DNA from: an uncultured Bacteroidales bacterium | GTDB taxonomy: Bacteria > Bacteroidota > Bacteroidia > Bacteroidales > P3 | Length of the DNA: 64,000 nt | Direction of reading: 5' to 3' | Assembly: GCA_900318175.1 (NCBI GenBank) | Contig: ONJQ01000029.1 | Location: 32,549 to 96,548 of the forward strand | Made by a program: the position numbers and the translations under genes | Shown here: piece after piece, positions 1 to 45,511 of the stretch | How the letters are laid out: every line of letters begins with the position of its first letter | How positions within the stretch are numbered: position 1 is the first letter of the stretch | Notes under the pieces: generated by a model | Told to the model about the DNA's origin: nothing | The model's input: the letters and a program-made list of their open reading frames with translations, nothing else | Databases searched by the model: none

Positions 1-1
1 C

Positions 2-775
2 TTCTATACTCTCTCGCTGCCTTGCTCGCTGTGGTTCTTCGACCGCAACAAGCATGCCGACATCCGCGACAAAGTGCTCTTTATCGATGCCCGCAACTAC
101 TACACCGTAGTTGACCGCACCCTGAATGAATGGACCGAGTGGCAGCTGCGCAACATGCAAGCCATTGTACACTTGTATCGTGGCGAGAAAGAGAAATACC
201 TTGCCTTGATGAATGACTACGACGAGGCTATTGCCGAGGCAGTCGCAGCTTTGGAAGAGAAAGGCCAGCCATTCAGCGAACTAATCGACCGCGACACCCA
301 AGGTCATTTCTGGGGAACGATGGGGTGGATAGCTAATGCCGGTCAGGATTATGCGAAAATGCGTGAGGCCATTGAAGACCAGATATCCCAGACAAAAGCC
401 TGTGTGAAATCGGCAGAAGACTACATAGAGAAGCGCAAAGTAAAGGCAATGCGTCTGGCTGGTGAAGAGTTCTGCAATGACCTCAACAGCATCATCACCA
501 TTCTTGACGAGCGAGATTGGCTGGTGTCGAAATTCGGCACCGACGGTACTTATCAGGACATCCTTGGTCTCTGCAAAATAGCCACCATTCAGGAGATTGA
601 GGAAAAGAACTACTCGCTCACTCCCGGTGCTTATGTGGGTGTGGCCGAGCAGGAGGACGACGGAGTGGATTTCCACGAGCGCATGAACGAGATACATGCC
701 GAATTGGCGCAGCTGAACAGCGAAGCCAACACCCTGATGGCTGAGATACAAAAAGCATGGGAGGAGCTGAAATGA
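2..775 (+). CDS. hsdM: Type I restriction-modification DNA methyltransferase (M) subunit, C-terminal part
   Basis: The reading frame is open from the window edge and has no start here, so only about 257 C-terminal residues are present. It opens with a FYTLSLPCSLWFFDRNK stretch followed by a DARN motif, which is characteristic of the distal part of HsdM adenine methyltransferases. The rest is a helical C-terminal region with coiled-coil character. HsdM uses S-adenosylmethionine to methylate adenine in the host recognition site and forms the M2S core with HsdS. The catalytic NPPY/F motif lies outside the window. Its stop overlaps the next start (ATGA), so translation is coupled to the DUF1016 gene. 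Family and operon position agree. Confidence 0.9.
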   Translation, partial: FYTLSLPCSLWFFDRNKHADIRDKVLFIDARNYYTVVDRTLNEWTEWQLRNMQAIVHLYRGEKEKYLALMNDYDEAIAEAVAALEEKGQPFSELIDRDTQGHFWGTMGWIANAGQDYAKMREAIEDQISQTKACVKSAEDYIEKRKVKAMRLAGEEFCNDLNSIITILDERDWLVSKFGTDGTYQDILGLCKIATIQEIEEKNYSLTPGAYVGVAEQEDDGVDFHERMNEIHAELAQLNSEANTLMAEIQKAWEELK

Positions 776-1137
776 ATGAGTTAGAGAAGAACAACGATAA
801 ACTGTTACAGACCGTAGCAGTTATCAAAGAAGCCATCCTGCAAGGTCAATACGAGGCTGCTAAAGGAGTGAGTAACATCCTGTTGGCGTTGTATTTTGGT
901 ATAGGCAAATATGTGTCGCAACAATCGCGCAAAGGCACATGGGGTACTGGCGCTTTGGAGACCATCAGCGGCCAGCTGCGCCGTGAGCTACCGGGATTGA
1001 GAGGCTATTCTGCAACCCAATTGAAAGAAATGCGTCTTTTTTATGAGGCATGGATAATGCTTGATACCAATTCTTCGGTTGCATTAAAGCAGCTGATGAG
1101 CGGCAAAGACCAAAATGATAAGGAGGACGAGGCATGA
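772..1137 (+). CDS. DUF1016 N-terminal domain protein within type I RM operon
   Basis: The product is 121 residues, starting at the ATG that overlaps the hsdM stop; an in-frame ATG at 757 lies inside hsdM and is less likely. The segment with LYFGIGKYVSQQSRKGTWGTG and the following LRRELPGLRGYSATQLKEMR match the N-terminal helical domain of DUF1016 (YhcG-type) proteins. In full-length YhcG this is followed by a PD-(D/E)XK nuclease domain, which is absent. The gene overlaps both hsdM and hsdS by four bases, so it is part of the restriction operon. An accessory or DNA-binding role is inferred only. The ending looks natural rather than frameshifted. Confidence 0.75.
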   Translation: MNELEKNNDKLLQTVAVIKEAILQGQYEAAKGVSNILLALYFGIGKYVSQQSRKGTWGTGALETISGQLRRELPGLRGYSATQLKEMRLFYEAWIMLDTNSSVALKQLMSGKDQNDKEDEA

Positions 1138-2273
1138 GTGAGGTCAAATTGAAAGACATTACTATTAGTATAACAGATGGTAAACATGGTGATTGCAGAG
1201 GGGAAAATGATTCTGGATATTATTTTGTCAGTTGTAAAGATGTGTACGATGGGCTTATTCATTATGACAACGCTCGTCAAATAATGGAAGATGATTTCTT
1301 GGATGCTGACAAACGAACTAAACTTTCAGCTAATGATATTTTAGTAACAAACAGCGGCACCATTGGGAGAATGGCGCTTGTTAAAGACGTCCCTGAAACA
1401 AGACGAACAACATTCCAAAAAAGTGTTGCTATTGTAAAGCCAAATACAGACAAAGTATTACCTATATATTTGTATTACCTCCTTCAGAGTAAGGTTTATG
1501 ATTTCGTCAATAGTTCTAATGGGGCAGCTCAAAAGAATCTTCTGCTATCTACGATGAGAGAATTTGATTTAGAGATAGAAGATGACGTAAATATTCAACA
1601 CTGTATTGCCACCATCCTCTCCCGTTACGACTCTTTGATAGAGAACTATCAGAAGCAGATAAAGCTGTTGGAGGAAGCAGCGCAGCGACTCTATAAGGAA
1701 TGGTTCGTTGACCTCCACTTTCCAGGCTATGAAAACACAAAGATTGTCGATGGTGTTCCAGAGGGGTGGGAAAATGCGAAACTTGGTGATCTGGTGGAGT
1801 TCAAAAGAGGAAAAACAATAACGAAGAAAGAAGTAATTGAAGGACCAATCCCTGTTGTTGCAGGTGGAATTAATCCTGCATACTATTGTAATATGTCAAA
1901 CACAGCTGAACGGGTAATAACAATAAGCGCTTCTGGTTATGCTGGATTTGTAAAATTGTATTATGAAAGAATATGGGCTTCTGATTGCTCGTTCATTGAT
2001 GTTTCAACCACAGATTTTTTGCATTTTGTATATTGTTACCTCAAATTAAAACAGACTTCAATATATAATATGCAAAGAGGCTCCGCACAACAACATGTTT
2101 ATGCAAAAGACATCAATTCGTTGGATTTATGCATTCCCATCAAAAGCGTGCTCAAATCTTTTGAAGGGAAGGCATCTAAATATTTTGATACAATATCTTA
2201 TCTCCAATATCAAATCCGCCTCCTCACCGAAGCCCGCGACCGCTTGCTTCCCAACCTTTTAAAAATGAAATAA
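1134..2273 (+). CDS. hsdS: Type I restriction enzyme specificity (S) subunit
   Basis: This 379-residue protein has the usual two-half layout. TRD1 covers about residues 1-150. A conserved spacer helix (SRYDSLIENYQKQIKLLEEA, then RLYKEWFVDL) follows at about 160-200. TRD2 begins near VPEGWENAKLGDLVEFKRGK and ends in a second helix (LLTEARDRLLPNLLK). The two target-recognition domains read the two halves of a bipartite DNA site and the helices set the spacing. Both TRDs are AT-rich compared with the spacer, consistent with the usual exchange of TRDs by recombination. The gene overlaps the DUF1016 gene by four bases and is followed 20 bases later by the AIPR gene. Confidence 0.92.
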   Translation: MSEVKLKDITISITDGKHGDCRGENDSGYYFVSCKDVYDGLIHYDNARQIMEDDFLDADKRTKLSANDILVTNSGTIGRMALVKDVPETRRTTFQKSVAIVKPNTDKVLPIYLYYLLQSKVYDFVNSSNGAAQKNLLLSTMREFDLEIEDDVNIQHCIATILSRYDSLIENYQKQIKLLEEAAQRLYKEWFVDLHFPGYENTKIVDGVPEGWENAKLGDLVEFKRGKTITKKEVIEGPIPVVAGGINPAYYCNMSNTAERVITISASGYAGFVKLYYERIWASDCSFIDVSTTDFLHFVYCYLKLKQTSIYNMQRGSAQQHVYAKDINSLDLCIPIKSVLKSFEGKASKYFDTISYLQYQIRLLTEARDRLLPNLLKMK

Positions 2274-2293
2274 CCATTAAATAAAATATTATT

Positions 2294-4015
2294 ATGAGAA
2301 AAGCCGAATCACTAACGAGCAATCAGATCCTTGTAAAAAGCATTGTATCAAAGGAATTCAAGGAAGATGCAGCAAATTACAAAAATGAAAATGAATATTT
2401 TGAATTTTTTTCTGCTAGTCAGATTTTAAAAAATCTCAATCTTAGTAATGAAGAGATATCTGATGGTATTGTGGGCGGAGGTAATGATGGGGGGTGTGAT
2501 GCAATATATGTATTATTAAATGGTGAACGAGTGACATCTGATATGTTGTCAGGTTTAAAAGTCACCAAAGGCTCAATACTTGAATTAATAATCATTCAAG
2601 CAAAAATGACAATGGGCTTTAGTGAAGATGCCATTATGAAATTCAAAACGACATCGGAGAACCTATTGCCACTTGATTGTGATAATAAAGAATATGAGAA
2701 ACGATATAATGAGGATGTACTTGATGAATTTAAACTTTTTAGAGATATCATTACTACATATATTACTAGTCAGATCGTTATCTCCATTAAATACTTCTAT
2801 TCGACTTTAGCAGCCAATGATATTCATGAAAATGTAATTAACCAAAAAGATGAGCTGATTTTAAAAGTACGTGGTATATTCCCTACTGCAAAAGTTGCTT
2901 TTGATTTTGTTCATGCGGATGAACTAATGTCTTATTACAATAAAGATGTAGATTTCACTGGTATACTAACTCTTTCAGAGAGTCCAATTTCTCTTGGAGG
3001 AAATGATTATGTTGCACTAATCAATTTGTCTAATTATTTTAATTTTATTGTAGACAATACTGGTAAACTACGATATGGCATTTTTGACTCTAACGTTAGA
3101 GATTATCAAGGAAATAATTCTGTGAACTCCGATATAGCCAATACGTTGTCTGAAAGAAATACAGAAACCGATTTTTGGTGGTTGAACAATGGCGTTACAA
3201 TAATAGCGGAAGAATTAAGGCCAATAACAACAAAATCACTAGAAATAAAAAATCCCGAAGTTGTTAATGGACTTCAGACATCAAGAGAGATATTCAATTA
3301 CTTTTCTAAAGATTCTGGTTTGTTAGATTCGGAGAAAAGGAATATATTGGTTAGAATTATATGCCCGAAAGAAGAAAGTTCTAGAGATAAAGTAATATTT
3401 GCAACAAATAACCAAACCAGTATTCCGAAGTATTCATTAAGAGTTACTGATAATATTCATCTCCAGATTGAAGGATATTTTAAAACAAAGGGGCTGTATT
3501 ATGATAGGCGAAAAAACTACTATAAAAACAGAAATAAAAAGAGTTCGGAAATAATAGGAGTTCCATTTTTGGCTCAATGCTTGATTACACTAGTGTTAAA
3601 GCAACCTGATTATGCGAGAGCTCGGCCCTCTTCGCTACTTGCTGATAATAATACATATCACTTGTTATATGAGGCATCCCCTAACCTTGAAGCTTATTAC
3701 AGAGTGGCAAAAACCGGGAAAATAGTGAAGAATATTGTTGATTTATCGGAGGGGCTTGAGAGGTCTGAAAAAAGCGATATTCTTTTTTATGTATTGTATG
3801 CTGTCGTTTCCAAAAAGATGAAAACAACAGATATTACGTTTGACAAATTAAAAGATTTTGATTTTGAAACACTTTCGGATGAAGAAATAAACAATAGTAA
3901 AGAACTTGTATATCAACTATACAAAGAAGAAGGCGGAAATAGTCGAGTTGCAAAGAGCTCAACATTTATAAAAAAGGTAATTGATAAATTGAATATGCAA
4001 CAAGAAACTTCTTGA
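2294..4015 (+). CDS. AIPR family protein (abortive-infection / phage-resistance type)
   Basis: The 573-residue product carries the hallmarks of the AIPR family: WWLNNGVTIIAEE, then VVNGLQTSREIFNYF, then VRIICPKE with FATNNQTSI near residues 290-390. The N-terminal part has GGGNDGGCDAIYV (Asp69) followed by ELIIIQAKM (Gln102, Lys104). This resembles a PD-(D/E)XK nuclease core, which is my inference. AIPR proteins occur in abortive-infection and restriction islands and are thought to act against phage. Codon use is AT-rich, unlike hsdR and the chromosomal genes to the right, suggesting separate acquisition. It sits between hsdS and the Septu-like pair on the same strand. Confidence 0.85.
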   Translation: MRKAESLTSNQILVKSIVSKEFKEDAANYKNENEYFEFFSASQILKNLNLSNEEISDGIVGGGNDGGCDAIYVLLNGERVTSDMLSGLKVTKGSILELIIIQAKMTMGFSEDAIMKFKTTSENLLPLDCDNKEYEKRYNEDVLDEFKLFRDIITTYITSQIVISIKYFYSTLAANDIHENVINQKDELILKVRGIFPTAKVAFDFVHADELMSYYNKDVDFTGILTLSESPISLGGNDYVALINLSNYFNFIVDNTGKLRYGIFDSNVRDYQGNNSVNSDIANTLSERNTETDFWWLNNGVTIIAEELRPITTKSLEIKNPEVVNGLQTSREIFNYFSKDSGLLDSEKRNILVRIICPKEESSRDKVIFATNNQTSIPKYSLRVTDNIHLQIEGYFKTKGLYYDRRKNYYKNRNKKSSEIIGVPFLAQCLITLVLKQPDYARARPSSLLADNNTYHLLYEASPNLEAYYRVAKTGKIVKNIVDLSEGLERSEKSDILFYVLYAVVSKKMKTTDITFDKLKDFDFETLSDEEINNSKELVYQLYKEEGGNSRVAKSSTFIKKVIDKLNMQQETS

Positions 4016-4211
4016 TGACATTTCTGATGAGGATGGTGGCATTTTTATATTACTTTTTTATGTTATATAACAAAAAGAATATAGCAAAAATCAACCGATA
4101 CTTAAGAATACCTCTGTGCATTTTATTATCGGTATTTCAAACAATAATTATCATAAAACTACGTTATTCATTGAAAATAAAAAAGTCAAACTATTTTGTC
4201 AAAAAAGTCTA

Positions 4212-5534
4212 ATGCGCGAAATTGATATTAAGAACTTCCGGTGTTACGGATCCAAAAGGATGGAATTCAGGAGCGGCGTTAACCTGCTGATTGGCGATAA
4301 CGCTGTCGGTAAAACCTCTTTGTTGCGAGCATGCAACCTGGTAATCAATTCGTTCTTTTCAGGATACAGCGACGAGAATACCACATGGAGAAGTGCTGAG
4401 AACAATGATTTCAGAATTACTAGTGTCGCTGAGCAACCAGTTGAAATTGCATTCAGATTGGGTGAGTGGGACCTGTTTCCACTAGAAATACCAAGTGCCA
4501 ATGTACATATTATTCCAACATTGAATGATATTTATAAAATAGAGAAGAAGTCTAAAAAGAACTCACGAAATCTCGTTTCAGGACTTAATTCTCTAAAAAT
4601 ATACGCATCCAATCTCCAAAAGTATTCACACGTTTTGGTGGACGGAAAGGTCAAGCAGAATCACGTCTTGCCTGTTTATGGTTTTTTTTCGACTGAGGAC
4701 ATTCACTCCATTCGCAAGATTGACAAAGAAAAGTTCAAAAACCTCACCCCAAAGCCGTCATTCGGCTATTATGAAAGCTATGACTGCAAGGGACTGATGG
4801 ACTGCTGGATTAAACGGTTACTTGTACTAAAAGAAGCAAAAAAGGGAGAAGAGGAAATAATAACAGTGAACAATGCCATCATAGAAGCACTAGGTCCACA
4901 AGGATGCAATATTATCGACGACATGGAAATTCGTCACAACGATGGAAAAGTCTATTTTCATTTTACTGACGAGCGTGAAATAGAATCGGGAATGCTCTCC
5001 GATGGTTATCGCAGACTGGTAAATATTGTGATGGATATTGCCATTCGGTGCGCTTTGCTGAATAAGACTATGTTCGGAAACAAATGCTACAAGGAAACTC
5101 ACGGCACAGTTATCATCGATGAAATCGACGAACATCTCCACCCCTCTATTCAGGTTCGCATATTGAAAGCCCTGCAGAAGGCTTTCCCAAAAATACAGTT
5201 CATCGTTAGCACCCACTCACCCTTGGTGATTTCATCGGTAGAGTCTCATCCTTACAATGTTGTGTACAAACTTGGATATGATGATAAAACAAGAGAATAT
5301 ACCCATCATGAACTGAATGTTTATGGAATGGATGCCTCGACTATAATTGAGACTTATATGGGGCAAGAGGCTCGTGATATTGATGTAAGCAACAATATCA
5401 AGGAAGTTCAATCTCTTATCGATAAACAAAAACTACCTGAAGCCAAAGCAGCATTGATGGTTCTTGGACAGAAAATGGCACAGGGTGACCCGGAATTAGC
5501 CAAGATGGAAACACTAATATCTTTTCTTGAATAA
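4212..5534 (+). CDS. ptuA: Septu-like AAA/ABC-type ATPase PtuA
   Basis: I start the gene at the ATG followed by REIDIKNFRCYG, giving 440 residues; an upstream in-frame ATG at 4116 adds a non-conserved AT-rich tail. The fold is the RecF/OLD type. Walker A is GDNAVGKTS (about residues 28-36), an ABC-like signature is ESGMLSDGYRRL (about 258-269), Walker B is TVIIDEIDEHLHP (about 298-310), and a switch histidine lies in VSTHSPLV. The next gene encodes an HNH protein of the PtuB type six bases downstream. The pairing is that of the Septu anti-phage system, where the ATPase is thought to control the nuclease. Septu assignment rests on the pair, not on the ATPase alone. Confidence 0.82.
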   Translation: MREIDIKNFRCYGSKRMEFRSGVNLLIGDNAVGKTSLLRACNLVINSFFSGYSDENTTWRSAENNDFRITSVAEQPVEIAFRLGEWDLFPLEIPSANVHIIPTLNDIYKIEKKSKKNSRNLVSGLNSLKIYASNLQKYSHVLVDGKVKQNHVLPVYGFFSTEDIHSIRKIDKEKFKNLTPKPSFGYYESYDCKGLMDCWIKRLLVLKEAKKGEEEIITVNNAIIEALGPQGCNIIDDMEIRHNDGKVYFHFTDEREIESGMLSDGYRRLVNIVMDIAIRCALLNKTMFGNKCYKETHGTVIIDEIDEHLHPSIQVRILKALQKAFPKIQFIVSTHSPLVISSVESHPYNVVYKLGYDDKTREYTHHELNVYGMDASTIIETYMGQEARDIDVSNNIKEVQSLIDKQKLPEAKAALMVLGQKMAQGDPELAKMETLISFLE

Positions 5535-5539
5535 CTACT

Positions 5540-6217
5540 ATGATACTGATAAAAAAGAGCAAAGAACCCCAAAAGTGGACTGAATACCGTTCCACTCCAG
5601 GAGTCGATTATCAAGCAATTCCAGAATTGGTGGATTCGCTATTGAAAGAGCAGGGATATATCTGTGCATATTGCATGAGGAGGATTCCCACAAAAGATAG
5701 AGTATACAATAAAGACGGGGTTACTTTTAGCGAGACAAAAGAAGACCATCGAGTCGAGCATATCAAGAGTAGAGTGAAACATGATGATCTGAAACTCAAT
5801 TATACTAATATGGTCATCTGCTGTCCAGGGCATATCGGTGATGAGCCCCATTGCGACAGGTTGAAAGGCAGTGAAGACATCTCATTCTCACCACTTGATA
5901 CTATGTTCATAAATACTCTTTCTTATACTACTGATGGTAAAATTGAATCTTCGAATCATGCATATCAGACCGAAATAGAGAATATTCTCAACTTGAACAC
6001 CAAACTGCTGATGCTTGGACGGAAAGAGGCAAGGGATGAAGCAATCAAGAATGTCAACTATTTGTGCAAAAAAAATGGCACATGGAACAAGGCTGCAATT
6101 GAAAGGTGTCTGGCAAAGTATGATAATATGCATGTGAATGGCAATAAAAAAGAGTACTATCCATATTGCGGAATCATTTCATGGTATCTTAGAAAGAAAC
6201 TAAAACAGCTTTCATAA
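5540..6217 (+). CDS. ptuB: Septu-like HNH endonuclease PtuB (TIGR02646-like)
   Basis: This 225-residue protein has a CAYC pair at residues 42-45, a VEHIKSR motif with His74, the N-rich LNYTNMVICC segment at about 85-95, and CDRLKG at 105-110. This is the order seen in HNH nucleases of the TIGR02646 family, which partner RecF-like ATPases in Septu and in some retron systems. It lies six bases after ptuA and is clearly co-transcribed. No reverse transcriptase or ncRNA is nearby, so Septu is preferred over a retron. Degradation of invader or cellular DNA on activation is the expected role, by analogy. Confidence 0.85.
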   Translation: MILIKKSKEPQKWTEYRSTPGVDYQAIPELVDSLLKEQGYICAYCMRRIPTKDRVYNKDGVTFSETKEDHRVEHIKSRVKHDDLKLNYTNMVICCPGHIGDEPHCDRLKGSEDISFSPLDTMFINTLSYTTDGKIESSNHAYQTEIENILNLNTKLLMLGRKEARDEAIKNVNYLCKKNGTWNKAAIERCLAKYDNMHVNGNKKEYYPYCGIISWYLRKKLKQLS

Positions 6218-6238
6218 AAGAAAAGATAAAGCGATACT

Positions 6239-9200
6239 ATGTCATACGATTATAGCGAAGACCAACTGATACAGAAAAGCACCGCCGACTTCATGGAGAA
6301 GGAGTTGGGGTGGACGAGCATATATGCTTTCGACAAAGAGGTGCTTGGCCCTGACGGCACCCTTGGTCGCAACAGTTACCACGAGGTGTTGCTGCTACGC
6401 CATTTACGCAAGGCGTTGAAGACGCTGAATCCGTGGCTGACGGACAAGCAGATGCAGGAGGCTGTGGAGCGTATGACGGAATACATGAGCAGCCAGACGC
6501 TGATGCAGATTAATGAGCAGAAGTATCAGTACATTAAAGATGGTGTGCCTGTGACTCGTGTAAAACCGAGCGGAGAGACGGAAGAGGTGAAGGCTAAGGT
6601 CATCGACTTTGCTTCGCCCAACAAGAACGAGTTTCTCTGTGTGCGTGAGCTATGGGTGCATGGGGCTTTGTATCGCCGTAGGGCCGACATTGTAGGTTTC
6701 GTGAACGGTCTGCCACTGCTCTTTATGGAGCTGAAAAACCATGATGTGGAGGTACGGAGTGCTTTTGACGATAACTACCGCGACTATCTCGACACCATTC
6801 CCCAGCTGTTTCGGTTCAACGCCTTGATTATGTTCAGCAACGGCTTGGAAGCCCGTGTGGGAACAATAGACTCGAAGTGGGAGTTCTTCCATGAGTGGAA
6901 ACGCTTGAACGAGATGGAGACTGGCAACATAGAGCTGCCCACTATGTTGAAGGGTATCTGCAAGAAAGAGTATTTCCTCGACCTGCTGGAGAACTTTATC
7001 CTCTACGACCACAGCGAAGGCACCACCGTGAAGATTCTGGCACGCAACCACCAGTATTTGGGGGTGAACCAGGCGGTGGAGATGTACCGCAACCGCAAGT
7101 ATGTGAACGGAAAGCTAGGCGTGTTTTGGCACACACAGGGCAGCGGCAAGAGCTATTCGATGCTGTTTCTGGCACAGAAGATAAGGCGCAAGTTTGAAGG
7201 CTCACCCACCATTCTTGTGCTGACCGACCGAGACGAACTAAACAAGCAGATAAGCAACACTTTTGAAAACTGCGGGCTGTTGGGCAATGTAAAAGCCAAA
7301 AAATTTATAGCCAGCAGTGGCGAGGACTTGGTGACAAAACTACGTGGCAATCCTTCGTTTATCTTCTCGTTGATGCAGAAATTCAACGACCCCAAAGCAG
7401 AGCCCATCTATCCCGACCATGACATCATTGTGATGAGCGACGAGGCACACCGCACACAGAACGGAATCTTCGCCGACAACCTTATGCATCTGCTACCGAC
7501 TGCCAACCGCATCGGCTTTACAGGAACACCTCTCTTGAAAAACGATCATATCACTGAGCGGACCTTTGGCGGTTATGTGAGTATCTACGACTTCAAACGG
7601 GCAGTAGAGGACAAAGCCACCGTACCGCTCTTTTATGAGAACAGAGGAGAACGGCTGCAAGAGCTGAAGAACCCCGAAATCAATGAGGAGATAGCTGCAG
7701 CTTTGGAACAGGCTGGGGATATGGATGCTTCACAGCTGGCCAAGTTGGAGCGTGAATTTGCCAGAGAGGTGCATCTGCTCACTGCCAAAAAGCGTTTGCG
7801 CATCGTGGCACAGGATTTCGTACGCCACTACAGCGACCTGTGGACTTCGGGTAAGGCGATGTTTGTATGCTACAACAAGGTGACGTGCGTACAGATGTAC
7901 AACTACGCCCAGGAATACTGGCAGCAAGAGATAAAACGCCTGCAAGTGACCATCGACAAATGTGATTCGCAACAGGAAGTACAGGAGATGCGCCGCAAAC
8001 TGGCGTGGATGCAGGAAACGGAAATGGCCGTGGTGGTATCGCAGGAGCAGAACGAGATACAGACTTTCCAGAAATGGGGACTCGACATACTGCCTCATCG
8101 CGAGAAGATGGAGAAACGCGAGCTGGACAAGGAATTCAAAGACCCCGACTCGAAGTTCCGAGTGGTGTTTGTCTGTGCTATGTGGCTGACAGGTTTCGAC
8201 GTGAAAACGCTTTCGTGCCTTTATCTCGACAAACCCATGAAAGCTCATACGCTGATGCAGACCATCGCACGTGCCAACCGAGTAGCAGAGGGCAAGACAA
8301 ACGGACTGGTGGTTGACTATATAGGCATCGTCAAAGCTTTACGTCAGGCATTGGCCGACTATACCGCCAATCCGGAAGGGCATGAAGGCGGAAACGACCC
8401 GACGGTTAACAAAGAGGAACTAATCAAACATGTCGTAGAAGCCATTGATGCCGCTAAGTCATTCTTGAAAGAACATGAGATTGAACTGGACAGTTTAATT
8501 CATGCTAAAGATGGTTTTGTTAGACTCGTGTTGTTAAAGGAGGCCGCTAACGCCATGTGTGAGACGCTGGAGATAAGAAAAACCTATTGTACTTTTGCCT
8601 CTACGTTGTTGAATCTATGGAAATATCTCGACCGTGAGGACATCACACATGAAATGAAACAGCAGAAGGATGCCATAGAGGCCATCTACAAAGAGTTGCA
8701 AAAAAAACGCAAGCATGCGGATATCACCGACCTCAGTGTGGCTATCAGCGAGATAATAAATGAGCACATCGAAATGGAAGAAGTTGAGATAGCTGACATC
8801 GATCCGTTCAGGCGTTTTGACATCAGCGGCATCAACTTTGAATTATTACGCCGTGAGTTTGCCCGAAGCCGTGAAAAGAATCTGGTCATGAAAGATATTC
8901 AGGAACTATTGCAGGAACGTATAGCCAGAATGCTTGCAGCCAATCCTTCGCGCATCAATTTTTACGAGAAATACCAACAAATCATTTCGGACTACAACAA
9001 AGAGCAAGACAGGGTGACAATTGAGAATACTTTTGAAGAACTGATGAAGTTGTCGAATGACTTGGAAGAGGAAGAAAAACGATATATTCGTGAAGGCTTT
9101 GAAAATGATGAGCAATTGTCGCTGTATGACGTACTGATGAAAGACAATCTCACGAAAGAGGATATCAAAAAGATAAAGAAGGTTGCAAAGGAGCTACTGG

Positions 9201-9391
9201 AAAAAATCAAGACATTATTGTCCCAAATGGACCACCCCTTCGACAAAGATGAAACCAAGGCTACACTGAACATTACCATTCGCGACATCTTGTGGAGAAG
9301 GCTACCCGACAGTTATCCCGACGAGAGCATCATCTTCTACCGCGATGCTGTATACAACTACTTCAGACAGCGATATAGCAATGTGGCATAA
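6239..9391 (+). CDS. hsdR: Type I restriction enzyme motor/endonuclease (R) subunit
   Basis: The full-length 1050-residue subunit has an N-terminal PD-(D/E)XK nuclease (RRADIVGF with Asp near residue 149, and FMELKNHD with ELK near 163-165). A superfamily-2 translocase follows, with Walker A HTQGSGKSYS near residue 300 and a DEAHR box near 401. Later motifs include GFTGTPL and MWLTGFDVKTL, and a helical C-terminal domain contacts the methylase. With M2S it cleaves unmethylated DNA at a distance after ATP-driven translocation. It is separated from its hsdM and hsdS partners by three other defence genes. The frame is intact. It is the last intact gene of the island. Confidence 0.95.
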   Translation: MSYDYSEDQLIQKSTADFMEKELGWTSIYAFDKEVLGPDGTLGRNSYHEVLLLRHLRKALKTLNPWLTDKQMQEAVERMTEYMSSQTLMQINEQKYQYIKDGVPVTRVKPSGETEEVKAKVIDFASPNKNEFLCVRELWVHGALYRRRADIVGFVNGLPLLFMELKNHDVEVRSAFDDNYRDYLDTIPQLFRFNALIMFSNGLEARVGTIDSKWEFFHEWKRLNEMETGNIELPTMLKGICKKEYFLDLLENFILYDHSEGTTVKILARNHQYLGVNQAVEMYRNRKYVNGKLGVFWHTQGSGKSYSMLFLAQKIRRKFEGSPTILVLTDRDELNKQISNTFENCGLLGNVKAKKFIASSGEDLVTKLRGNPSFIFSLMQKFNDPKAEPIYPDHDIIVMSDEAHRTQNGIFADNLMHLLPTANRIGFTGTPLLKNDHITERTFGGYVSIYDFKRAVEDKATVPLFYENRGERLQELKNPEINEEIAAALEQAGDMDASQLAKLEREFAREVHLLTAKKRLRIVAQDFVRHYSDLWTSGKAMFVCYNKVTCVQMYNYAQEYWQQEIKRLQVTIDKCDSQQEVQEMRRKLAWMQETEMAVVVSQEQNEIQTFQKWGLDILPHREKMEKRELDKEFKDPDSKFRVVFVCAMWLTGFDVKTLSCLYLDKPMKAHTLMQTIARANRVAEGKTNGLVVDYIGIVKALRQALADYTANPEGHEGGNDPTVNKEELIKHVVEAIDAAKSFLKEHEIELDSLIHAKDGFVRLVLLKEAANAMCETLEIRKTYCTFASTLLNLWKYLDREDITHEMKQQKDAIEAIYKELQKKRKHADITDLSVAISEIINEHIEMEEVEIADIDPFRRFDISGINFELLRREFARSREKNLVMKDIQELLQERIARMLAANPSRINFYEKYQQIISDYNKEQDRVTIENTFEELMKLSNDLEEEEKRYIREGFENDEQLSLYDVLMKDNLTKEDIKKIKKVAKELLEKIKTLLSQMDHPFDKDETKATLNITIRDILWRRLPDSYPDESIIFYRDAVYNYFRQRYSNVA

Positions 9392-9437
9392 TTGTTGAAA
9401 AGAAACCTGTTTCTTTGCACCCGAAATAGAGTTGCAG

Positions 9438-9525
9438 GCGTTACAGTGTAACGGTGTAACAGCTCGAAAAGATTGCCCGGCAGGGGAATGGTGTCGGGCT
9501 AAACCTAACTGTAACGCTGTAACGC
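9438..9525. repeat. Inverted GTTACAG motif repeats at the island edge
   Basis: GCGTTACAG and a second GTGTAACAG-like copy at 9438-9462 face CTGTAACGCTGTAACGC at 9509-9525 across about 46 bases. The motif lies exactly between the end of hsdR and the point where tatD homology begins. It could be a scar or a terminal repeat of an inserted element. Only the repeat itself is seen; a mobile origin is inferred. Confidence 0.45.
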
Positions 9526-9539
9526 TTGGTGTTGGGGGA

Positions 9540-9974
9540 GGGGAGATAGGCCTTGATCTGTATTGGGACAAAACCTACTTGGAGCAGCAACGCGAGGTGC
9601 TGAAGCAGCAGATGCGGTGGGCAAGGGAATTGGGCTTCCTGAACTTCGGCACCTACAAAGGTGTCATGCACTGCTTCGGGGGCAGCGTGCAGCAGGCCCA
9701 TAAAGCCGTCGAGATGGGTTTCCACCTCGGTATCGGCGGCGTGGTGACCTTCAAGAATGCCACTATGGCCGAGGTCGTAGCTTCGGTGCCCCTCCAAAGT
9801 ATCCTGTTGGAGACCGATGCTCCCTACCTTGCTCCCGTGCCCTATCGCGGCAAACGCAATGAGAGTGCCTACATCCCTGTCATAGCCGAGAAAATTGCAG
9901 CCCTCAAAGGTGTCTCCATCGCCGAAGTGGACGAGGTGACATCTGCCTCGGCCACCGTTCTGTTTGGTCTGTAA
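9540..9974 (+). pseudogene. tatD: tatD-family metallo-DNase remnant
   Basis: Homology to TatD hydrolases starts at GEIGLDLYWDKTYLEQQ and ends with LLETDAPYLAPVPYRGKRNE and a C-terminal helix. The first 90 or so residues, with the HxH metal site, are missing. In addition about 25 residues are lost in frame between RWARELG and KGVMHCFGG, removing the PVVIHxRD segment that supplies another metal-ligand histidine. The reading frame is open and continues upstream into unrelated sequence with an ATG at 9432, but the product cannot be an active TatD enzyme. It lies immediately after the restriction island, so the island may have replaced or interrupted the 5' half. Confidence 0.8.
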
Positions 9975-9985
9975 TGGCCGCAGTA

Positions 9986-10765
9986 CTATAGGCGATAGCC
10001 TATCCGGGCTATGAACATCAAGGGGTTTATGAAGTCGCCTTTAAACACCATGCTTCCCTGTTGGAGAGACCTGTCCCCAGCGGCCCGATAGTTGAAGTCC
10101 TCATAACCCTCAATCAGAACAGCCCCCATGCCCCACAATCCCAGGTCGGCCAGCCAGTGCCGGCTCTCTGTCAGTCCCACTGCCACCCGCCAGGCGGCCG
10201 TCACCTTAGTGCTGTAGTGGTCCACATAAGAGTAGTCATATAGTTGCAAGTTGCCAACCTCGATAGGTTGGGTGCCGCCCAGCATCTCTGCACTGCGGTT
10301 GGTAATGATGTTGAAGCCCAAGCCGGCCTGTGCTGTAACATAGAAATTGTACTTCTGGTTGATGGGGGTCTCGTAATGGAGGCCCGCCAGCACGGGGATA
10401 TGTAGAAAAAGGGGCTGGGTAAGCTTCACGGTGGCAAAATTGCGGCGCAGATTGGCCAGAGTAGTGATGCGGTTGACTCTGATTTCGGAGTTCACCCCAT
10501 TGATGACCAAGTCGGTGCTGAGGGCTATGCTCATCCGGCTGCTGTCGCGGGTGGGAATGTGGTAAGCCATACCCAGGTTGCCTCCCATTCCAGCACCGGC
10601 CAGGCTGCCGCCTGTCGTCAGTGCCCACCTGTTGCTGGCAAGGTCGGCTTTGGCATAATCGCCCAGCGGCAATGTCCATCCGGCATAAAAGTTCCACCTG
10701 TCATGTTGCGCTGCGGATGTGAAGGCCAGGGCCGCAAAAAGGATAGTTGCAATTGCTTTCTTCAT
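9986..10765 (-). CDS. Outer-membrane beta-barrel protein, function unknown
   Basis: The 259-residue product has a Sec signal peptide (MKKAIATILFAALAFTSAAQ) and then alternating amphipathic strands ending in the aromatic/hydrophobic terminus IARIGYRL. That is the pattern of Bacteroidota outer-membrane barrel proteins. No enzymatic motif is visible. It is transcribed away from rnfA, and its 3' end converges on the tatD remnant with an 11-base gap. A porin-like or structural role is possible, but I do not recognise a named family. Confidence 0.72.
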   Translation of the reverse strand: MKKAIATILFAALAFTSAAQHDRWNFYAGWTLPLGDYAKADLASNRWALTTGGSLAGAGMGGNLGMAYHIPTRDSSRMSIALSTDLVINGVNSEIRVNRITTLANLRRNFATVKLTQPLFLHIPVLAGLHYETPINQKYNFYVTAQAGLGFNIITNRSAEMLGGTQPIEVGNLQLYDYSYVDHYSTKVTAAWRVAVGLTESRHWLADLGLWGMGAVLIEGYEDFNYRAAGDRSLQQGSMVFKGDFINPLMFIARIGYRL

Positions 10766-10884
10766 AGGATGAATGCTGTTTTTATCATTGCCACGATAAA
10801 CGCAAAAAGGGGGGAGATATTACATGGCGGTACATTTTTTTCGGTCAAAGGCACAATAAAACTGCATGAATGAAAAAAAATATG

Positions 10885-10892
10885 TAAATTTG
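10885..10892 (+). promoter_or_regulatory. -7 element upstream of rnfA
   Basis: TAAATTTG fits the Bacteroidota -7 consensus TAnnTTTG and lies about 50 bases before the rnfA start. No TTG is found at the usual 19-base spacing, so only half of the promoter is supported. Confidence 0.55.
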
Positions 10893-10940
10893 CAGTCCGA
10901 ATATAATATCAAAATTGTAGAATAAAACTTTAATAATACT

Positions 10941-11528
10941 ATGGGTATCAGTATTTTTGCTTTGATTATCGGAGCTATATTTGTCAACAATGTTGTGTTG
11001 GCTCAGTTCCTTGGCATCTGTCCTTTCCTTGGAGTTTCTAAGGATGTGAAGAGTTCAATAGGTATGGGAGGCGCCGTGCTTTTCGTCATGTTGCTTGCCA
11101 CCCTGGTCACCTATCTTATCTACAATTATGTGTTGGTGCCCTTCAATCTGGGCTACCTCCAGACCATTGCCTACATCCTTGTCATTGCTGGCTTGGTTCA
11201 GATGGTCGAGATTGTTCTCAAGAAGATTGCCCCTGCCCTGTACCAGACGCTGGGTGTCTTCCTCCCGCTCATCACCACCAACTGTGCCGTCCTTGGCGTG
11301 GCCATCCTCGTTGTGCAGAAGAACATGAACCTGCTTGAGAGCATCGTTTATGCTGCCAGCATTGCCGTGGGCTTCACCCTGGCACTGGTCATCTTTGCCG
11401 GCCTCCGCGAGCAGATGGAGCTCACCGGTGTCCCCAAGGGCATGAAGGGTGTCCCCATCGCTTTGGTCACCGCTGGCATCCTTGCCATGGCATTTATGGG
11501 CTTCAATGGTCTCGTTCCGCTGCCGTAA
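10941..11528 (+). CDS. rnfA: Rnf/Rsx electron-transport complex subunit A
   Basis: This 195-residue membrane protein aligns through its length with RnfA/RsxA: FVNNVVLAQFLGICPFLGVS, LITTNCAVLGVAI and FAGLREQMELTGVPKGMKG. It has about six transmembrane helices. RnfA is an inner-membrane subunit of the ferredoxin:NAD+ oxidoreductase that pumps Na+ or H+. In related genomes it normally sits with rnfB, C, D, G and E. Here none of those genes flank it: a divergent porin-like gene lies upstream and a small lipoprotein gene downstream. It has its own -7 element. The identification is secure; the isolation is unusual. Confidence 0.93.
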   Translation: MGISIFALIIGAIFVNNVVLAQFLGICPFLGVSKDVKSSIGMGGAVLFVMLLATLVTYLIYNYVLVPFNLGYLQTIAYILVIAGLVQMVEIVLKKIAPALYQTLGVFLPLITTNCAVLGVAILVVQKNMNLLESIVYAASIAVGFTLALVIFAGLREQMELTGVPKGMKGVPIALVTAGILAMAFMGFNGLVPLP

Positions 11529-11704
11529 ATGCGTCCAAAAAGACCCTCATTTTTCGTTTTTCGACACTAAAAAAGGCTGAATTTCAAGAAAAAAGAACTC
11601 GACGCGAGCCGAAAATCAGAATTTTAACATTTTGAATTTTAACATTTTGGCGAAGCGTTAAGATTTTTTGACATTTTTTTTCTTTTTAGTCGTGGAAATT
11701 GTAG

Positions 11705-11712
11705 TACTTTTG
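11705..11712 (+). promoter_or_regulatory. -7 element upstream of small lipoprotein gene
   Basis: TACTTTTG followed by CA fits the Bacteroidota -7 consensus. It lies about 95 bases before the ATG at 11808, implying a long leader. The region 11529-11704 holds two copies of GAATTTTAACATTTT and no gene that I can support. Confidence 0.6.
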
Positions 11713-11807
11713 CATTCGATTTGAAACAACAACAAAGCCTGTTTCAATCGGCAAAAAAGAAAACATTTTAAACTAATAGAAAAGATAACTTTAAAAAATT
11801 CAAAGAG

Positions 11808-12005
11808 ATGAAAAAAGTAATGTTCCTTATGGCTGTCGCCGGCATGTTCGCCTTTGCAGCTTGCAACAACACCCCCGCTGAGACCGAAACTATCGATACC
11901 GCTGCTGTGGTTGAGGAAATGGTCGAAGAGCCCATCGTTGACAGCGCTGTTGAGACTATGGCTGAAGAGGCCGTTGCCGAGGTTGCTACCGAGGTTGCCG
12001 AATAA
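11808..12005 (+). CDS. Small acidic lipoprotein
   Basis: The 65-residue product has a lipoprotein signal sequence with the lipobox FAAC (Cys19). The mature part of about 46 residues is almost entirely Glu, Ala, Val, Thr and Asp, with no aromatic residues and a strong negative charge. It is bracketed by its own -7 element and a strong terminator, so it is a monocistronic, probably well expressed gene. No family is recognised. It may be an abundant outer-membrane or periplasmic lipoprotein; function is unknown. Confidence 0.75.
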   Translation: MKKVMFLMAVAGMFAFAACNNTPAETETIDTAAVVEEMVEEPIVDSAVETMAEEAVAEVATEVAE

Positions 12006-12030
12006 TCATTCGACATTACCAACAGAATGA

Positions 12031-12067
12031 AGGAGACTGTCCGTCTGGACGGTCTCCTTTCTTTTTT
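12031..12067 (+). terminator. Intrinsic terminator after small lipoprotein gene
   Basis: AGGAGAC-GTCC and GGAC-GTCTCCT pair across a TCTG-type loop, followed by a T-rich tract. Confidence 0.85.
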
Positions 12068-12091
12068 GCCTCTACCCAAGAGGTTTTTTTG

Positions 12092-12121
12092 TTGCTGGTT
12101 CGTTTTTTTTTCGTATCTTTG
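12092..12121 (+). promoter_or_regulatory. Promoter of trpS
   Basis: TTG at 12092-12094, a 19-base spacer, then TATCTTTG at 12114-12121. This places transcription start near 12128, downstream of the in-frame ATG at 12089, and therefore decides the start of trpS. Confidence 0.8.
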
Positions 12122-12172
12122 CATTCCCGCGGAGTGTCTCTGCGGCCTATTGTTTTATTCATTTATCACTCT

Positions 12173-13189
12173 ATGTCTATGACTGATAACATCAAGCGTG
12201 AGGTTGTGTGCAGCGGCATCCGCCCTACGGGCAACCTGCATCTGGGCAACTATTTCGGCGCCCTCCGCAATTTCGTGAAGCTGCAGGAGCAGTATGACTG
12301 CTACTTTTTCGTGGCGGACTACCATTCGCTGACCACTCATCCCACTCCGGGCAACCTGTATCAGAATGCCCGTCAGATATTGGTGCAATACTTGGCTGTC
12401 GGCCTCGACCCCGAACGCGCTACCATCTATTTCCAGAGCGACCTCCCGCAGACCGCGGAGCTCTACCTCTTCTTTAATATGAATGCCTACCTTGGCGAGC
12501 TGGAGCGCGTCACCTCCTTCAAGGACAAGGTGCGCCAGAACCCCAACAATGTGAACGCCGGTCTGCTGACCTATCCCACGCTGATGGCGGCGGACATCCT
12601 AATCCACAAGGCCACGCGCGTGCCGGTGGGTAAGGACCAGGAGCAGCACTTGGAGATGACCCGTACCTACGCCCAGCGTTTCAATAGCATGTATGGCAGC
12701 GAGGTCTTCCCGTTGCCGCAAGCCGTGGGCTCTCCCGCCGGTCTGGTGAAAATCCCTGCCCTGAACGGCAGCGGCAAGATGGGCAAGAGTGAAGGTGAAG
12801 CCAGCACCATCTTCCTTACCGACGAGCCCTCCGTCATCCGCAAGAAGATTATGAAGGCCAAGAGCGACAGCGGCCCCACCGAGATGAACCAAAAGAAACC
12901 CGAGGAGATTGAGAACCTCTTCAGTCTGCTGAAGGCTGTCTCCAAGCTGGAGACCGTCGAGTATTTCGACGACCTCTACAACCGCTGCCAGATTCGTTAC
13001 GGCGACCTCAAGAAACAGCTGGCCGAGGATATGGTGGCCTTTGTCGAGCCGCTGCGCCAGCGCATCCTTGAAGTGGGTGCCGACGAGGAGGGCCTCCGCC
13101 GCATCATCGACCGCGGCAAGGAGAAGGCCCGCGCCAGTGCCGACCGCACCATCGCCGAGGTCCGCCACGTCATAGGCTACAGGGACTGA
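12173..13189 (+). CDS. trpS: Tryptophan--tRNA ligase
   Basis: This class I aminoacyl-tRNA synthetase charges tRNA-Trp with tryptophan using ATP. The HIGH-type signature appears as PTGNLHLGNYFGAL (about residues 18-31) and the KMSKS loop as GSGKMGKSEGEAS (about 200-212). Its 338 residues match the usual length. I start at 12173; the ATG at 12179, two codons later, is equally possible. An ATG at 12089 is excluded because it lies upstream of the promoter. No terminator separates it from manC, so the two may be co-transcribed. Confidence 0.95.
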   Translation: MSMTDNIKREVVCSGIRPTGNLHLGNYFGALRNFVKLQEQYDCYFFVADYHSLTTHPTPGNLYQNARQILVQYLAVGLDPERATIYFQSDLPQTAELYLFFNMNAYLGELERVTSFKDKVRQNPNNVNAGLLTYPTLMAADILIHKATRVPVGKDQEQHLEMTRTYAQRFNSMYGSEVFPLPQAVGSPAGLVKIPALNGSGKMGKSEGEASTIFLTDEPSVIRKKIMKAKSDSGPTEMNQKKPEEIENLFSLLKAVSKLETVEYFDDLYNRCQIRYGDLKKQLAEDMVAFVEPLRQRILEVGADEEGLRRIIDRGKEKARASADRTIAEVRHVIGYRD

Positions 13190-13235
13190 ACCCCTCTCAA
13201 ATCTATTATAGCTATCACCCCTAAATCAAATAACC

Positions 13236-14303
13236 ATGAGCAACCGTTACTGCATCATCATGGCCGGCGGCATTGGCAGCCGTTTCTGGCCCCTCAGCAA
13301 GAACAACTACCCCAAACAGTTCCTTGACATCTTGGGGACTGGCAAGAGTTTCATCCGCAGCACCTTTGAGCGTTTCCTGCCCGTGGTGCCCGCTGAGAAC
13401 TTCCTGGTGGTGACCAACGCCGCCTACAAGAGCATGGTGCTGGAGCATCTGCCCGAACTGAAGCCGGAACAGGTGCTGTGCGAGCCCATGCGCCGCAACA
13501 CCGCTCCCTGCATCGCCTACGCCAACTACCGCATCCTCTCGCGCAACCCCGAGGCCAGCATTGTGGTCACCCCTGCCGACCACCTCGTCACCAACGAAGT
13601 GGAGTTCCAGCGCATCATCCGAGTGGGCATGGACTTTGTCGAAGACCCCACCCACGCCGACGCTCTCCTCACCATAGGCATCAAGCCCTCGCGCCCCGAG
13701 ACGGGCTATGGCTACATTGAGTGGAATGCGGACCGCGACGGCTCCTCAGCCCAAGAGGTGAAGCCTGTGGTCAACTTCAAGGAGAAACCCAATCTGGAGA
13801 CTGCCAAGCAATACCTCGCCTCTGGCCGTTACCTTTGGAACGCCGGCATCTTCGTCTGGTCGCTGCAGGGTATCCGCCGCGCCTATCACGATTACCTGCC
13901 CGACATGGAGCAGCTCTTCGACAGCGGCCGTGCCCTCTTTGGCACCGAGAAGGAGCAAGCTTTCATCAATGATATGTTCCCGCAGTGCGAGAACATCAGT
14001 ATCGACTACGGCGTGATGGAGCGTTCCCCCAACCGCTTCACCATCCCCGCCGACTTCGGCTGGAGCGACATCGGCACCTGGGGCTCCCTCTACGAGCACG
14101 CCGCCCACGACGCAGCCCAAAATGCCGTCAGCGGCCACGCCGTGCTGGAGCAGACCCGCAACAGCGTCGTCAACATCGAGCCCGGCTATGAGGCCGTCGT
14201 GCAGGGTATGGACCGCTGCCTTGTGGCCTTGCGCGACCACAGCCTGCTGGTGTGCCGCCTCGATGACGAGCAGAACATCAAGCACTGGATAGAACGCCTG
14301 TAG
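13236..14303 (+). CDS. manC: Mannose-1-phosphate guanylyltransferase
   Basis: The 355-residue cytoplasmic enzyme makes GDP-mannose from GTP and mannose-1-phosphate for capsule, LPS and glycoprotein synthesis. The nucleotidyltransferase signature MAGGIGSRFWPLSK with YPKQFLD is at residues 9-30. CEPMRRNTAPCIAYA, VVTPADHLV, the sugar-binding ETGYGYIEW and the active-site NFKEKP (about 180) follow in order. WNAGIFVW and FGWSDIGTWGSLYEH complete the family pattern. It lacks the C-terminal isomerase domain of bifunctional ManC. It lies 46 bases after trpS and is closed by a terminator. Confidence 0.93.
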   Translation: MSNRYCIIMAGGIGSRFWPLSKNNYPKQFLDILGTGKSFIRSTFERFLPVVPAENFLVVTNAAYKSMVLEHLPELKPEQVLCEPMRRNTAPCIAYANYRILSRNPEASIVVTPADHLVTNEVEFQRIIRVGMDFVEDPTHADALLTIGIKPSRPETGYGYIEWNADRDGSSAQEVKPVVNFKEKPNLETAKQYLASGRYLWNAGIFVWSLQGIRRAYHDYLPDMEQLFDSGRALFGTEKEQAFINDMFPQCENISIDYGVMERSPNRFTIPADFGWSDIGTWGSLYEHAAHDAAQNAVSGHAVLEQTRNSVVNIEPGYEAVVQGMDRCLVALRDHSLLVCRLDDEQNIKHWIERL

Positions 14304-19362: not shown

Positions 19363-19400
19363 TTTGCGACGTTGTCCACAAAAAAAGGTGAAAAAATATT

Positions 19401-19430
19401 TTGCCAATCCAAAAAAAGTTAGTAATTTTG
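19401..19430 (+). promoter_or_regulatory. Promoter of tRNA-Glu and rpsT
   Basis: TTG at 19401-19403, a 19-base spacer, then TAATTTTG at 19423-19430, followed by CACCCGC. Confidence 0.82.
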
Positions 19431-19773: not shown

Positions 19774-20107
19774 GTTGCATGTCGTGAGGGGAGGAGTGTC
19801 GACAGGAAGGGCCCGGTGCCGCCCGAGCGTGAGGGAAAGCCCCGATGGTCTTGGGGTATGAGGCCCTGCGGGCTTGCCTCTGCGGAGTGATTGTTTAGGA
19901 TTTGACTGGTAATTAGTGCTTTATGTTCATTCCGTTTTCGATGCACCCGAAATGGGTGCAGGGAACCCCCTATTTTTCGTAAAAAAGATGCTTCTTTGCC
20001 CCGTTTTGCAGGGGTGTGAGAGGTGTGGTGGGTATAAAAAATCATTTTTTAATAGGTTGAAGAATAGTGTGTTGTAAATTATTTTCAAGAAAAATTCATT
20101 TTTTTCT
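19774..20107. other. Intergenic stretch without a supported gene
   Basis: I see no gene here. The only structure is a small hairpin, TGCACCC-GAAAT-GGGTGCA, at 19942-19960, preceded by TTTTCGA. A minus-strand open frame crosses the area but has no recognisable content. Confidence 0.5.
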
Positions 20108-20137
20108 TTGCTGAATGGGAAAAAAGTCGTACTTTTG
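20108..20137 (+). promoter_or_regulatory. Promoter of tRNA-Asp and tmRNA
   Basis: TTG at 20108-20110, 19 bases, then TACTTTTG at 20130-20137 followed by CACCCGC, the same start region as the tRNA-Glu promoter. Confidence 0.82.
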
Positions 20138-45267: not shown

Positions 45268-45481
45268 CCCGAGGTGATGCCCAATTAGGGCGCGGACTAT
45301 GTCGCCACAGAGCTGTTGGCCGCACGCTGAAGGGCGTTTTGAGAAGGGCGGGGGCAGGGGCTGTTGATAACTTGGCGACGGCAGCAAGAAAAATGTATCG
45401 ATTTTTTTTTGTAAAACGCTGAAATATAATTCCTCCAAAGAATTTTAAGATTATTTAACGTTGAGTAATCACGTTGTTATT

Positions 45482-45511
45482 TTGTGGGGTGAAAAAATAG
45501 TTGTAATTTTG
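45482..45511 (+). promoter_or_regulatory. Promoter of the str/S10 ribosomal cluster
   Basis: TTG at 45482-45484, a 19-base spacer, then TAATTTTG at 45504-45511 followed by CATTCC. It precedes rpsL by about 80 bases and is the only clear promoter that I see for the whole cluster. Confidence 0.82.

Follow-up and report, generated by a model that had tools for sequence, protein, structure and literature searches.

We describe a type I restriction-modification (RM) operon at the beginning of a 64,000-nucleotide stretch of an uncultured Bacteroidales genome (assembly GCA_900318175.1, contig ONJQ01000029.1), a stretch that we refer to as the window. Besides hsdM, hsdS and hsdR, the operon contains further defence genes: a DUF1016 gene in the gap between hsdM and hsdS (slot 1), and a gene of the AbiU/AIPR family followed by a Septu pair, PtuA and PtuB, in the gap between hsdS and hsdR (slot 2). 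From a comparison with related operons, we consider it likely that this operon keeps hsdM and hsdR while it exchanges hsdS and the accessory defence genes, or cargo, in the two gaps, and that modules are added by recombination, leaving behind fragments of core genes, which we call scars. Operons of this lineage are common among Bacteroidales of the rumen and gut.

Relatives were obtained by an HsdR search of species-level genomes, of which the best 80 of 108 were used. Eleven loci were dropped, their contig ending too early, and 69 with readable hsdS and hsdR were retained; their hsdR is 74-86% identical to that of the window. The gap between hsdS and hsdR is at most 100 bp long in 11 of these 69 relatives and larger in the other 58. 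According to BLAST against a reference set, slot 2 of the 69 contains Fic-like genes (8 loci), McrBC (6), PtuAB (3: L048, L049 and L066) and AbiU (2: L029, 75% identical, and L060, 51%). Profile scans of representatives add GmrSD/NsnA-like, AlbA_2/Schlafen-like, RhuM, dGTPase, FRG and IVP genes as well as more Fic families to the cargo of the slots. The cargo comprises 33 clusters, 39 cargo sets and at least 15 kinds. Nearly all slot-2 open reading frames (ORFs) of at least 120 amino acids lie on the operon strand (87/89), and one of the two exceptions (L089) sits in a split hsdR. Over 50 loci the median junctions are 18 bp from hsdS to cargo and 6 bp from cargo to hsdR, and in 46 of the 50 the GC content of the cargo is below that of hsdR. 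Scans of cargo representatives, which are a part of all cargo, detected no integrase (20 proteins by Pfam; 10 by PADLOC, including 4 repeats); one cluster, K5, encodes a Y1 transposase of the IS200-like type. The genome of the window itself contains a second operon of the same lineage, on contig C36, with McrB and McrC in its hsdS-hsdR gap. This second operon (L007, G000:C36:96000-115000, 4596-14231) has an empty hsdM-hsdS gap.

A first-pass annotation of the window had placed the Septu-like pair and the AIPR gene inside the restriction operon, and had suggested searching for the order hsdS-AIPR-ptuA-ptuB-hsdR elsewhere. That stack recurs in none of the 69 readable operons, and AbiU and PtuAB occur together in none of them (0/69), so that AIPR-Septu is rejected as a conserved unit. 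The gene identities and the nesting stand, but the stack is peculiar to the window among the operons surveyed.

The cargo turns over faster than hsdR diverges. Among pairs of complete hsdR genes that are at least 95% identical (n = 42; the pairs share loci, and hence are not independent), 7 carry the same cargo set and 35 carry different ones; when truncated hsdR genes are included, 8 of 65 pairs share cargo. Where the cargo differs (35 pairs), hsdR has a median DNA identity of 88.7% over its first 300 nt and 89.1% over the rest, whereas the 100 nt before the hsdR start codon align at just 50%. The median protein identity is 91.9% for HsdM (26 pairs) and 39.1% for HsdS. Since hsdR and HsdM are similar in these pairs while HsdS and the 100 nt upstream of hsdR are divergent, we conclude that hsdM and hsdR form a stable frame within which hsdS and cargo are exchanged.

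The gaps also retain pieces of core genes. The first 300 nt of each of 63 hsdR genes were searched against 60 gaps longer than 100 bp (those of 58 relatives, the window and C36). Matches to the hsdR 5' end were found at 14 places in 14 gaps; two of these (L088, L089) were dropped because the resident hsdR is split there, which is the only curation applied to this set. The 12 remaining scars begin at nt 1 or 2 of hsdR (nt 6 in the window), are 39-236 nt long, and lie between cargo genes. By comparison, control segments taken at hsdR +1200, +1800 and +2400, from the hsdR 3' end and from the hsdM 5' end produce no match in the gaps, the segment at hsdR +600 matches two split genes and one stretch of 25 nt and nothing else, and shuffled gaps yield no hsdR 5' scar. 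Remnants of the hsdS 3' end were found as well. They directly follow the hsdR piece in L030, L034, L045, L066, L068 and L095; a clear one precedes the hsdR piece in L090; and in L020, L033, L086 and L089 they stand between cargo genes with no hsdR piece detected.

These scars are tied to gaps with several cargo genes. Pieces of hsdR alone occur in 12 of the 28 gaps with at least two cargo genes and in none of the 32 others (Fisher 2e-5); for scars of any kind the corresponding figures are 16/28 and 0/32 (Fisher 2e-7). Because remnants of core genes stand at the module boundaries, the modules were probably captured one after another. L066, L068 and L095 have a common junction before McrBC but different upstream modules (PtuAB; K13; RhuM-like plus K2, respectively), which indicates that the upstream module was exchanged while scar, McrBC and hsdR stayed in place.

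In the window, a degenerate hsdR 5' remnant lies at the boundary of AbiU and PtuA, which is where a model of stepwise accretion predicts it. Its alignment score is 48, compared with a maximum of 37 in 300 shuffled gaps and of 29 in 300 real slot windows. Against the window's own hsdR, the score is just 25.

Slot 1 has linkers of a similar kind. The 3' end of hsdM stands between tandem cargo genes in eight of the nine multi-gene gaps (L048 lacks it), and in L047 and L064 it is preceded by 26-31 nt of the hsdS 5' end. These linkers bear upon an alternative origin of the scars, namely in-place tandem duplication, which creates a junction hsdR5'::hsdS3' and is followed by replacement of one copy by other cargo. 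Duplication predicts the same layout of junctions, and short shared words are present at some of them. In five of the eight linkers, however, a foreign hsdM is a much better match to the hsdM piece than the resident hsdM is, which argues for capture from a foreign operon over duplication in place, and the window scar likewise fits a foreign hsdR better than its own. Most scars of slot 2 score alike against their own and other hsdR genes, so that the same comparison does not discriminate there. We regard duplication as an improbable source of the scars.

Under the reading that we prefer, new modules would come from related operons of this kind by recombination. An incoming piece would be joined at one end through homology within a core gene, and at the other end illegitimately, shortly inside the neighbouring core gene. 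The incoming module would then land beside the resident one and leave a scar, consisting of the hsdR 5' end, the hsdS 3' end, or both. AbiU and PtuAB in the window would both be modules of this sort, separated by a degenerate hsdR 5' scar. Cargo that lies on the operon strand with tight spacing is presumably expressed with the restriction genes, and residence in the operon would provide both joint expression and joint transfer. Judging from relatives, restriction and methylation by HsdRMS would be the first barrier to infection, with AbiU and PtuAB behind it as largely independent, infection-activated predicted nucleases. A bolder form of this reading, which we could as readily see fail as hold, is that the type I RM operon is an integrase-free cassette array, in which defence modules would move from operon to operon as hsdS3'-cargo-hsdR5' and hsdM3'-cargo-hsdS5' units, accumulate in tandem and be exchanged before hsdR has changed by 5%. 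If this is true, one can read from the scars in what order a genome gained its defences, the AbiU-Septu stack of the window being a two-step record.

Several observations weigh against the picture of recombination and scarring. The 80 loci are not a random sample, since they were found through hsdR patterns and only the best 80 were used; the sequences are mostly metagenome assemblies; and we infer the function of the cargo throughout. The hsdS remnants were picked by eye, with 11 of 18 plus-strand places kept; the minus strand, searched as a control, yielded 7 places, most of them palindromic repeats; and a mixed null drawn from slot windows scored as high as the remnants, because the slots hold further remnants. 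Twelve of the 28 multi-gene slots have no scar; seven of these twelve (L036, L044, L048, L049, L077, L091 and C36) hold one known or recurrent pair or set, the recurrent sets in unscarred gaps being McrBC, PtuAB, Nsn-like and K5+K21. In slot 1, three of 53 loci with at most one cargo gene (of at least 120 amino acids) also matched the hsdM 3' end: L095, a strong match with a Y1 transposase-type gene, and L073 and L058, which are weak. Finally, the window scar is the weakest of its set, being 39 nt long and matched by one of the 63 hsdR queries (E <= 1e-3), and an hsdS 3' remnant sought in the AbiU-PtuA gap of the window was not found.

Among the hsdS candidates that were dropped, those in L024, L036, L073, L077 and L087 are palindromic repeats, that in L092 is a frayed hsdS end, and that at L030:4479 is AT-rich. 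Repeats of the form CGCCC(T/C)GAA(A/G)GGGC lie near the hsdS 3' end in L024, L036, L047, L073, L077, L087 and L090. Several of these gaps also hold a small Y1 (IS200-like) transposase gene, a combination that resembles repetitive extragenic palindromic (REP) elements with their transposase.

A different explanation for the nesting, raised in the first-pass annotation with Septu triggered by failed restriction as its example, is a dedicated coupling, in which the cargo guards the restriction enzyme: held inactive by HsdRMS, it would be released when a phage inhibits or escapes restriction, like PrrC at EcoprrI. Such a role is attractive because PrrC, as described in the literature, is likewise encoded within a type I operon and cuts tRNA, which published PtuAB pairs attack too. 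Furthermore, the slot-borne PtuA proteins form a clade of their own in a seven-row tree (99/99; 4/7 rows), from which L117, 33% identical, was excluded as a long branch, and so do the slot-borne AbiU proteins in a 16-row tree (100/100; 3/16 rows); two other PtuAB pairs lie inside operons of another methylation-based system, BREX type 1. However, slot-limited clades are also expected from recombination through flanking homology alone, and a nine-row PtuA tree that includes the long branch has no well-supported branch. Eleven of the 69 operons hold no cargo, and at least 15 kinds of cargo that turn over faster than hsdR diverges are a poor fit to a protein-specific partnership; this rapid swapping of unrelated genes argues against a need for contact with HsdRMS in most modules. 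AbiU, moreover, is found outside RM operons. Its relatives in 11 viral contigs have no adjacent hsdM, hsdS or hsdR by BLAST (in one contig, L099, a partial ORF at a distance matches hsdR weakly, at 27%), and of 27 matching plasmid records the four neighbourhoods that were opened contain no annotated hsd gene. Coupling is thus, in our judgement, an unlikely explanation of the arrangement as a whole. It is far less credible still that the operon is a common defence island into which unrelated genes were inserted by chance between hsdS and hsdR, since, although the cargo is AT-rich and diverse as in such islands, 58 of 69 relatives are filled at the same two points, with nearly all ORFs on one strand, with the tight junctions given above and with scars tied to multi-gene gaps.

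Features of the type I RM operon in the window, with the matches that identify them.
Feature	Position	Strand	Evidence
hsdM, 3' part	2..775	+	PF02384 E 4e-13; PADLOC MTase_I 3e-72
DUF1016/YhcG gene, nuclease domain deleted in frame	772..1137	+	PF17761 only (DUF1016_N, E 2e-15)
hsdS, specificity subunit	1134..2273	+	PF01420 E 5e-27; PADLOC Specificity_I 1e-64
AbiU / AIPR-family protein, first module of slot 2	2294..4015	+	PF10592 1e-36; PADLOC AbiU PDLC02357 4e-182; PHROG 1841 Abi-alpha-like 1e-52
AbiU N-terminal domain, predicted PD-(D/E)XK-like nuclease (E37, D65, D69, Q102, K104)	2294..2959	+	
AbiU middle domain, ParB/Noc/KorB-like arrangement (tentative)	2996..3418	+	
Degenerate hsdR 5' remnant (hsdR nt 6-44), scar at AbiU/PtuA boundary	4073..4111	+	84.6% to L059 hsdR, BLAST E 1e-6
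PtuA, Septu ABC-type ATPase	4212..5534	+	PADLOC PDLC00272 E 1e-208; E. coli PtuA structure 8ee4 E 6e-28
PtuB, Septu HNH-type nuclease	5540..6217	+	PADLOC PDLC00322 E 4e-66
hsdR, restriction subunit	6239..9391	+	TIGR00348 486 bits (cut-off 284.55), E 2e-145

The order hsdM-DUF1016-hsdS-AIPR-PtuA-PtuB-hsdR on the plus strand, as first read from the letters, is borne out by gene calls and profile matches. The core is complete, with hsdM, hsdS and hsdR each present and intact: the full hsdM encodes 641 amino acids and runs in from upstream on the same contig (C52; L006:11398-13323). The gaps, described as short, are so at most junctions, where gene ends overlap (hsdM/DUF1016 and DUF1016/hsdS) or are separated by 20 bp (hsdS-AIPR), 5 bp (PtuA-PtuB) or 21 bp (PtuB-hsdR), but not at all of them, since 196 bp with a GC content of 24.5% separate AIPR from PtuA when the latter is taken to start at 4212. 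Similarly, the inserted genes are indeed AT-rich relative to hsdR, with a GC content of 32.1% (AIPR), 40.4% (PtuA) and 38.5% (PtuB) versus 48.2%, but hsdS is AT-rich too (37.6%; the hsdM end has 51.6%). From this layout we would also infer that the whole operon is one transcript. A candidate promoter before PtuA consists of one plus-strand consensus match at 4102-4129 (9/12), from a scan whose overall yield, 26 matches, is close to the shuffled mean of 20.7. Positions 1-9391 contain no match to the full Bacteroidetes-type promoter pattern, TTTG-N18-22-TANNTTTG. In the entire window that pattern occurs 6 times versus 0.74 expected in shuffles, with none in the defence operon part; examples are 12088-12121, 19400-19430, 20107-20137 and 45481-45511.

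Six bp upstream of hsdM is what appears to us to be a DUF2971-like gene, preceded by a presumably Fic-like gene. The DUF2971-like gene recurs directly 5' of hsdM in a few operons (L006:10618-11391, L010:13346-14119, L045 and L032), where it may occupy a third cargo position. The operon lies between two incomplete tatD-like genes that resemble each other, at 9530-9974 of the window and at L006:8302-8958 (C52). Their DNA identity is 98% over 108 bp and 83% over 195 bp, and the downstream copy lacks the N-terminal part. This pair may mark insertion or duplication of the whole island, or else an assembly problem.

The Septu-like pair named in the first reading is confirmed by matches to the PADLOC models of both proteins, which are adjacent and on the same strand. 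PtuA probably starts at ATG 4212 rather than GTG 4116, because three relatives align from there. Its GDNxVGKT and IDEIDEH motifs, which we take to be Walker motifs, are conserved in 4/4 PtuA proteins, and the Cys/His/Asn positions of PtuB are kept with the slot relatives. The NCBIfam scores of the pair all fall under their cut-offs: 164.2 bits for PtuA (cut-off 500), 79.1 for PtuB (150) and 43.1 for TIGR02646 (52.15). Since the NCBIfam PtuA and PtuB models were built for retron Ec78 effectors, these scores count against membership of retron I-A and not against Septu; the ORFs read also contain no sign of a retron, and the idea that this Septu belongs to one was rejected. PtuB has no match in the PDB at E <= 0.01. 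The pair thus resembles known PtuAB, including retron I-A effectors, in joining an ABC-type ATPase to an HNH protein, but differs in its position within an RM operon and in its PtuA, which shares 59-68% identity with the closest slot relatives and is remote from the solved PtuA (6e-28). Published PtuAB pairs cleave tRNA-Tyr (PMC11555353 and PMC13096335) or nicked DNA (as cited in the former).

Searches for PtuA in overlapping sets of 190, 395, 393 and 395 genomes, with E limits of 1e-40, 1e-60, 1e-80 and 1e-30, each returned the genome of the window and one other (G104, G588, G212 and G248, respectively). In G588 and G212 the pair is nested in a BREX type 1 operon, with brxC on one side and pglX on the other, in G104 it is in a different defence neighbourhood on a short contig, and the PtuA of G248 is the remote L117, outside any RM operon. 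The two pairs nested in BREX operons, both of other Bacteroidota, are at L115:7348-9244 and L116:7861-9766. No PtuA match was found in plasmids at E 1e-40. A contig from a viral collection, L109, has the order hsdM-(362-aa gene)-hsdS-PtuA-PtuB; it represents the L066 lineage again, its PtuA being 100% identical to that of L066, and was dropped as a fifth independent case. At L049:7916-9987, PtuA is 61% identical to that of the window and PtuB just 26%, so the two halves of that pair seem to have different histories.

The AIPR assignment is likewise confirmed, both by PF10592 and by PADLOC AbiU, whose profile is matched over its whole length (residues 10-567 of 573 to positions 2-535 of 537); there is no match among solved structures. 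A PD-(D/E)XK-like pattern had been noticed at the N-terminus, and it holds up: the five residues listed in the table are invariant in 13/13 AbiU proteins and fit acidic residues plus (D/E/Q)xK on core strands, the domain is predicted to be mixed alpha/beta, and its best fold matches are restriction nucleases. The N-terminus looks like a PD-(D/E)XK nuclease, and the fold comparison points, tentatively, to an added ParB-like domain. By contrast, PMC3506569 assigns AIPR proteins to the HEPN RNases. The predicted fold, the invariant E, D, D and QxK and the restriction nuclease matches speak against that assignment, and no HEPN match was found in AbiU by Pfam or among the fold rows, although absence from such a list is no proof; we consider a HEPN RNase at this N-terminus highly unlikely. 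The window protein thus shares with its family the whole-length AbiU match and the association with RM that the same source describes as frequent, while the printed domain assignment finds no support in it. This result would correct a printed assignment, and it names residues to mutate.

The DUF1016 gene is present where it was first placed, but it is not intact. In a DNA alignment with L037, ~370 bp at the start and ~63 bp at the end match, and ~861 bp between them are missing in frame, so that the N-terminal part is joined to the last ~20 residues. The absent part is the YhcG PD-(D/E)XK nuclease domain (PF06250) of the full-length L037 relative.

The clustering of defence genes and their residence in restriction operons are well known, while their route of entry is poorly understood. 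Defence genes inside type I operons, including the hsdS-hsdR site and the idea of a hotspot, are described in PMC12255303, PMC11411939 and PMC12707154, the first of which terms this site a potential recombination hotspot. We found no report of core-gene scars or of a turnover rate in the open-licence PMC literature, preprints not being covered; the scars and the turnover appear to be the new part. Such scars are direct molecular traces of capture events. They allow new defence modules to be predicted from scar-bounded intervals and acquisitions to be ordered in time, and they make it testable whether flanking homology alone, or a selected partnership with the restriction enzyme, decides which genes embed.

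The closest known systems are the operons of DarTG2 (EPEC), TgvAB (Vibrio cholerae) and RloF (Campylobacter jejuni), which also have defence genes between hsdS and hsdR in one operon. The window differs in that it stacks two unrelated modules, and the present analysis in that turnover is measured against hsdR divergence and core-gene scars are found at module boundaries. PrrC at EcoprrI is similar in being an accessory nuclease encoded inside a type I operon, but PrrC is under the control of the restriction enzyme, which holds and releases it, and no such link is known for AbiU or PtuAB here. Lastly, PMC12839542 describes OLD-ABC ATPase and nuclease backup effectors in BREX, with ABC-ATPase/HNH pairs inside BREX loci, as are the PtuAB pairs at brxC-pglX in two of our genomes; in the window, by contrast, the host system is a type I RM operon.

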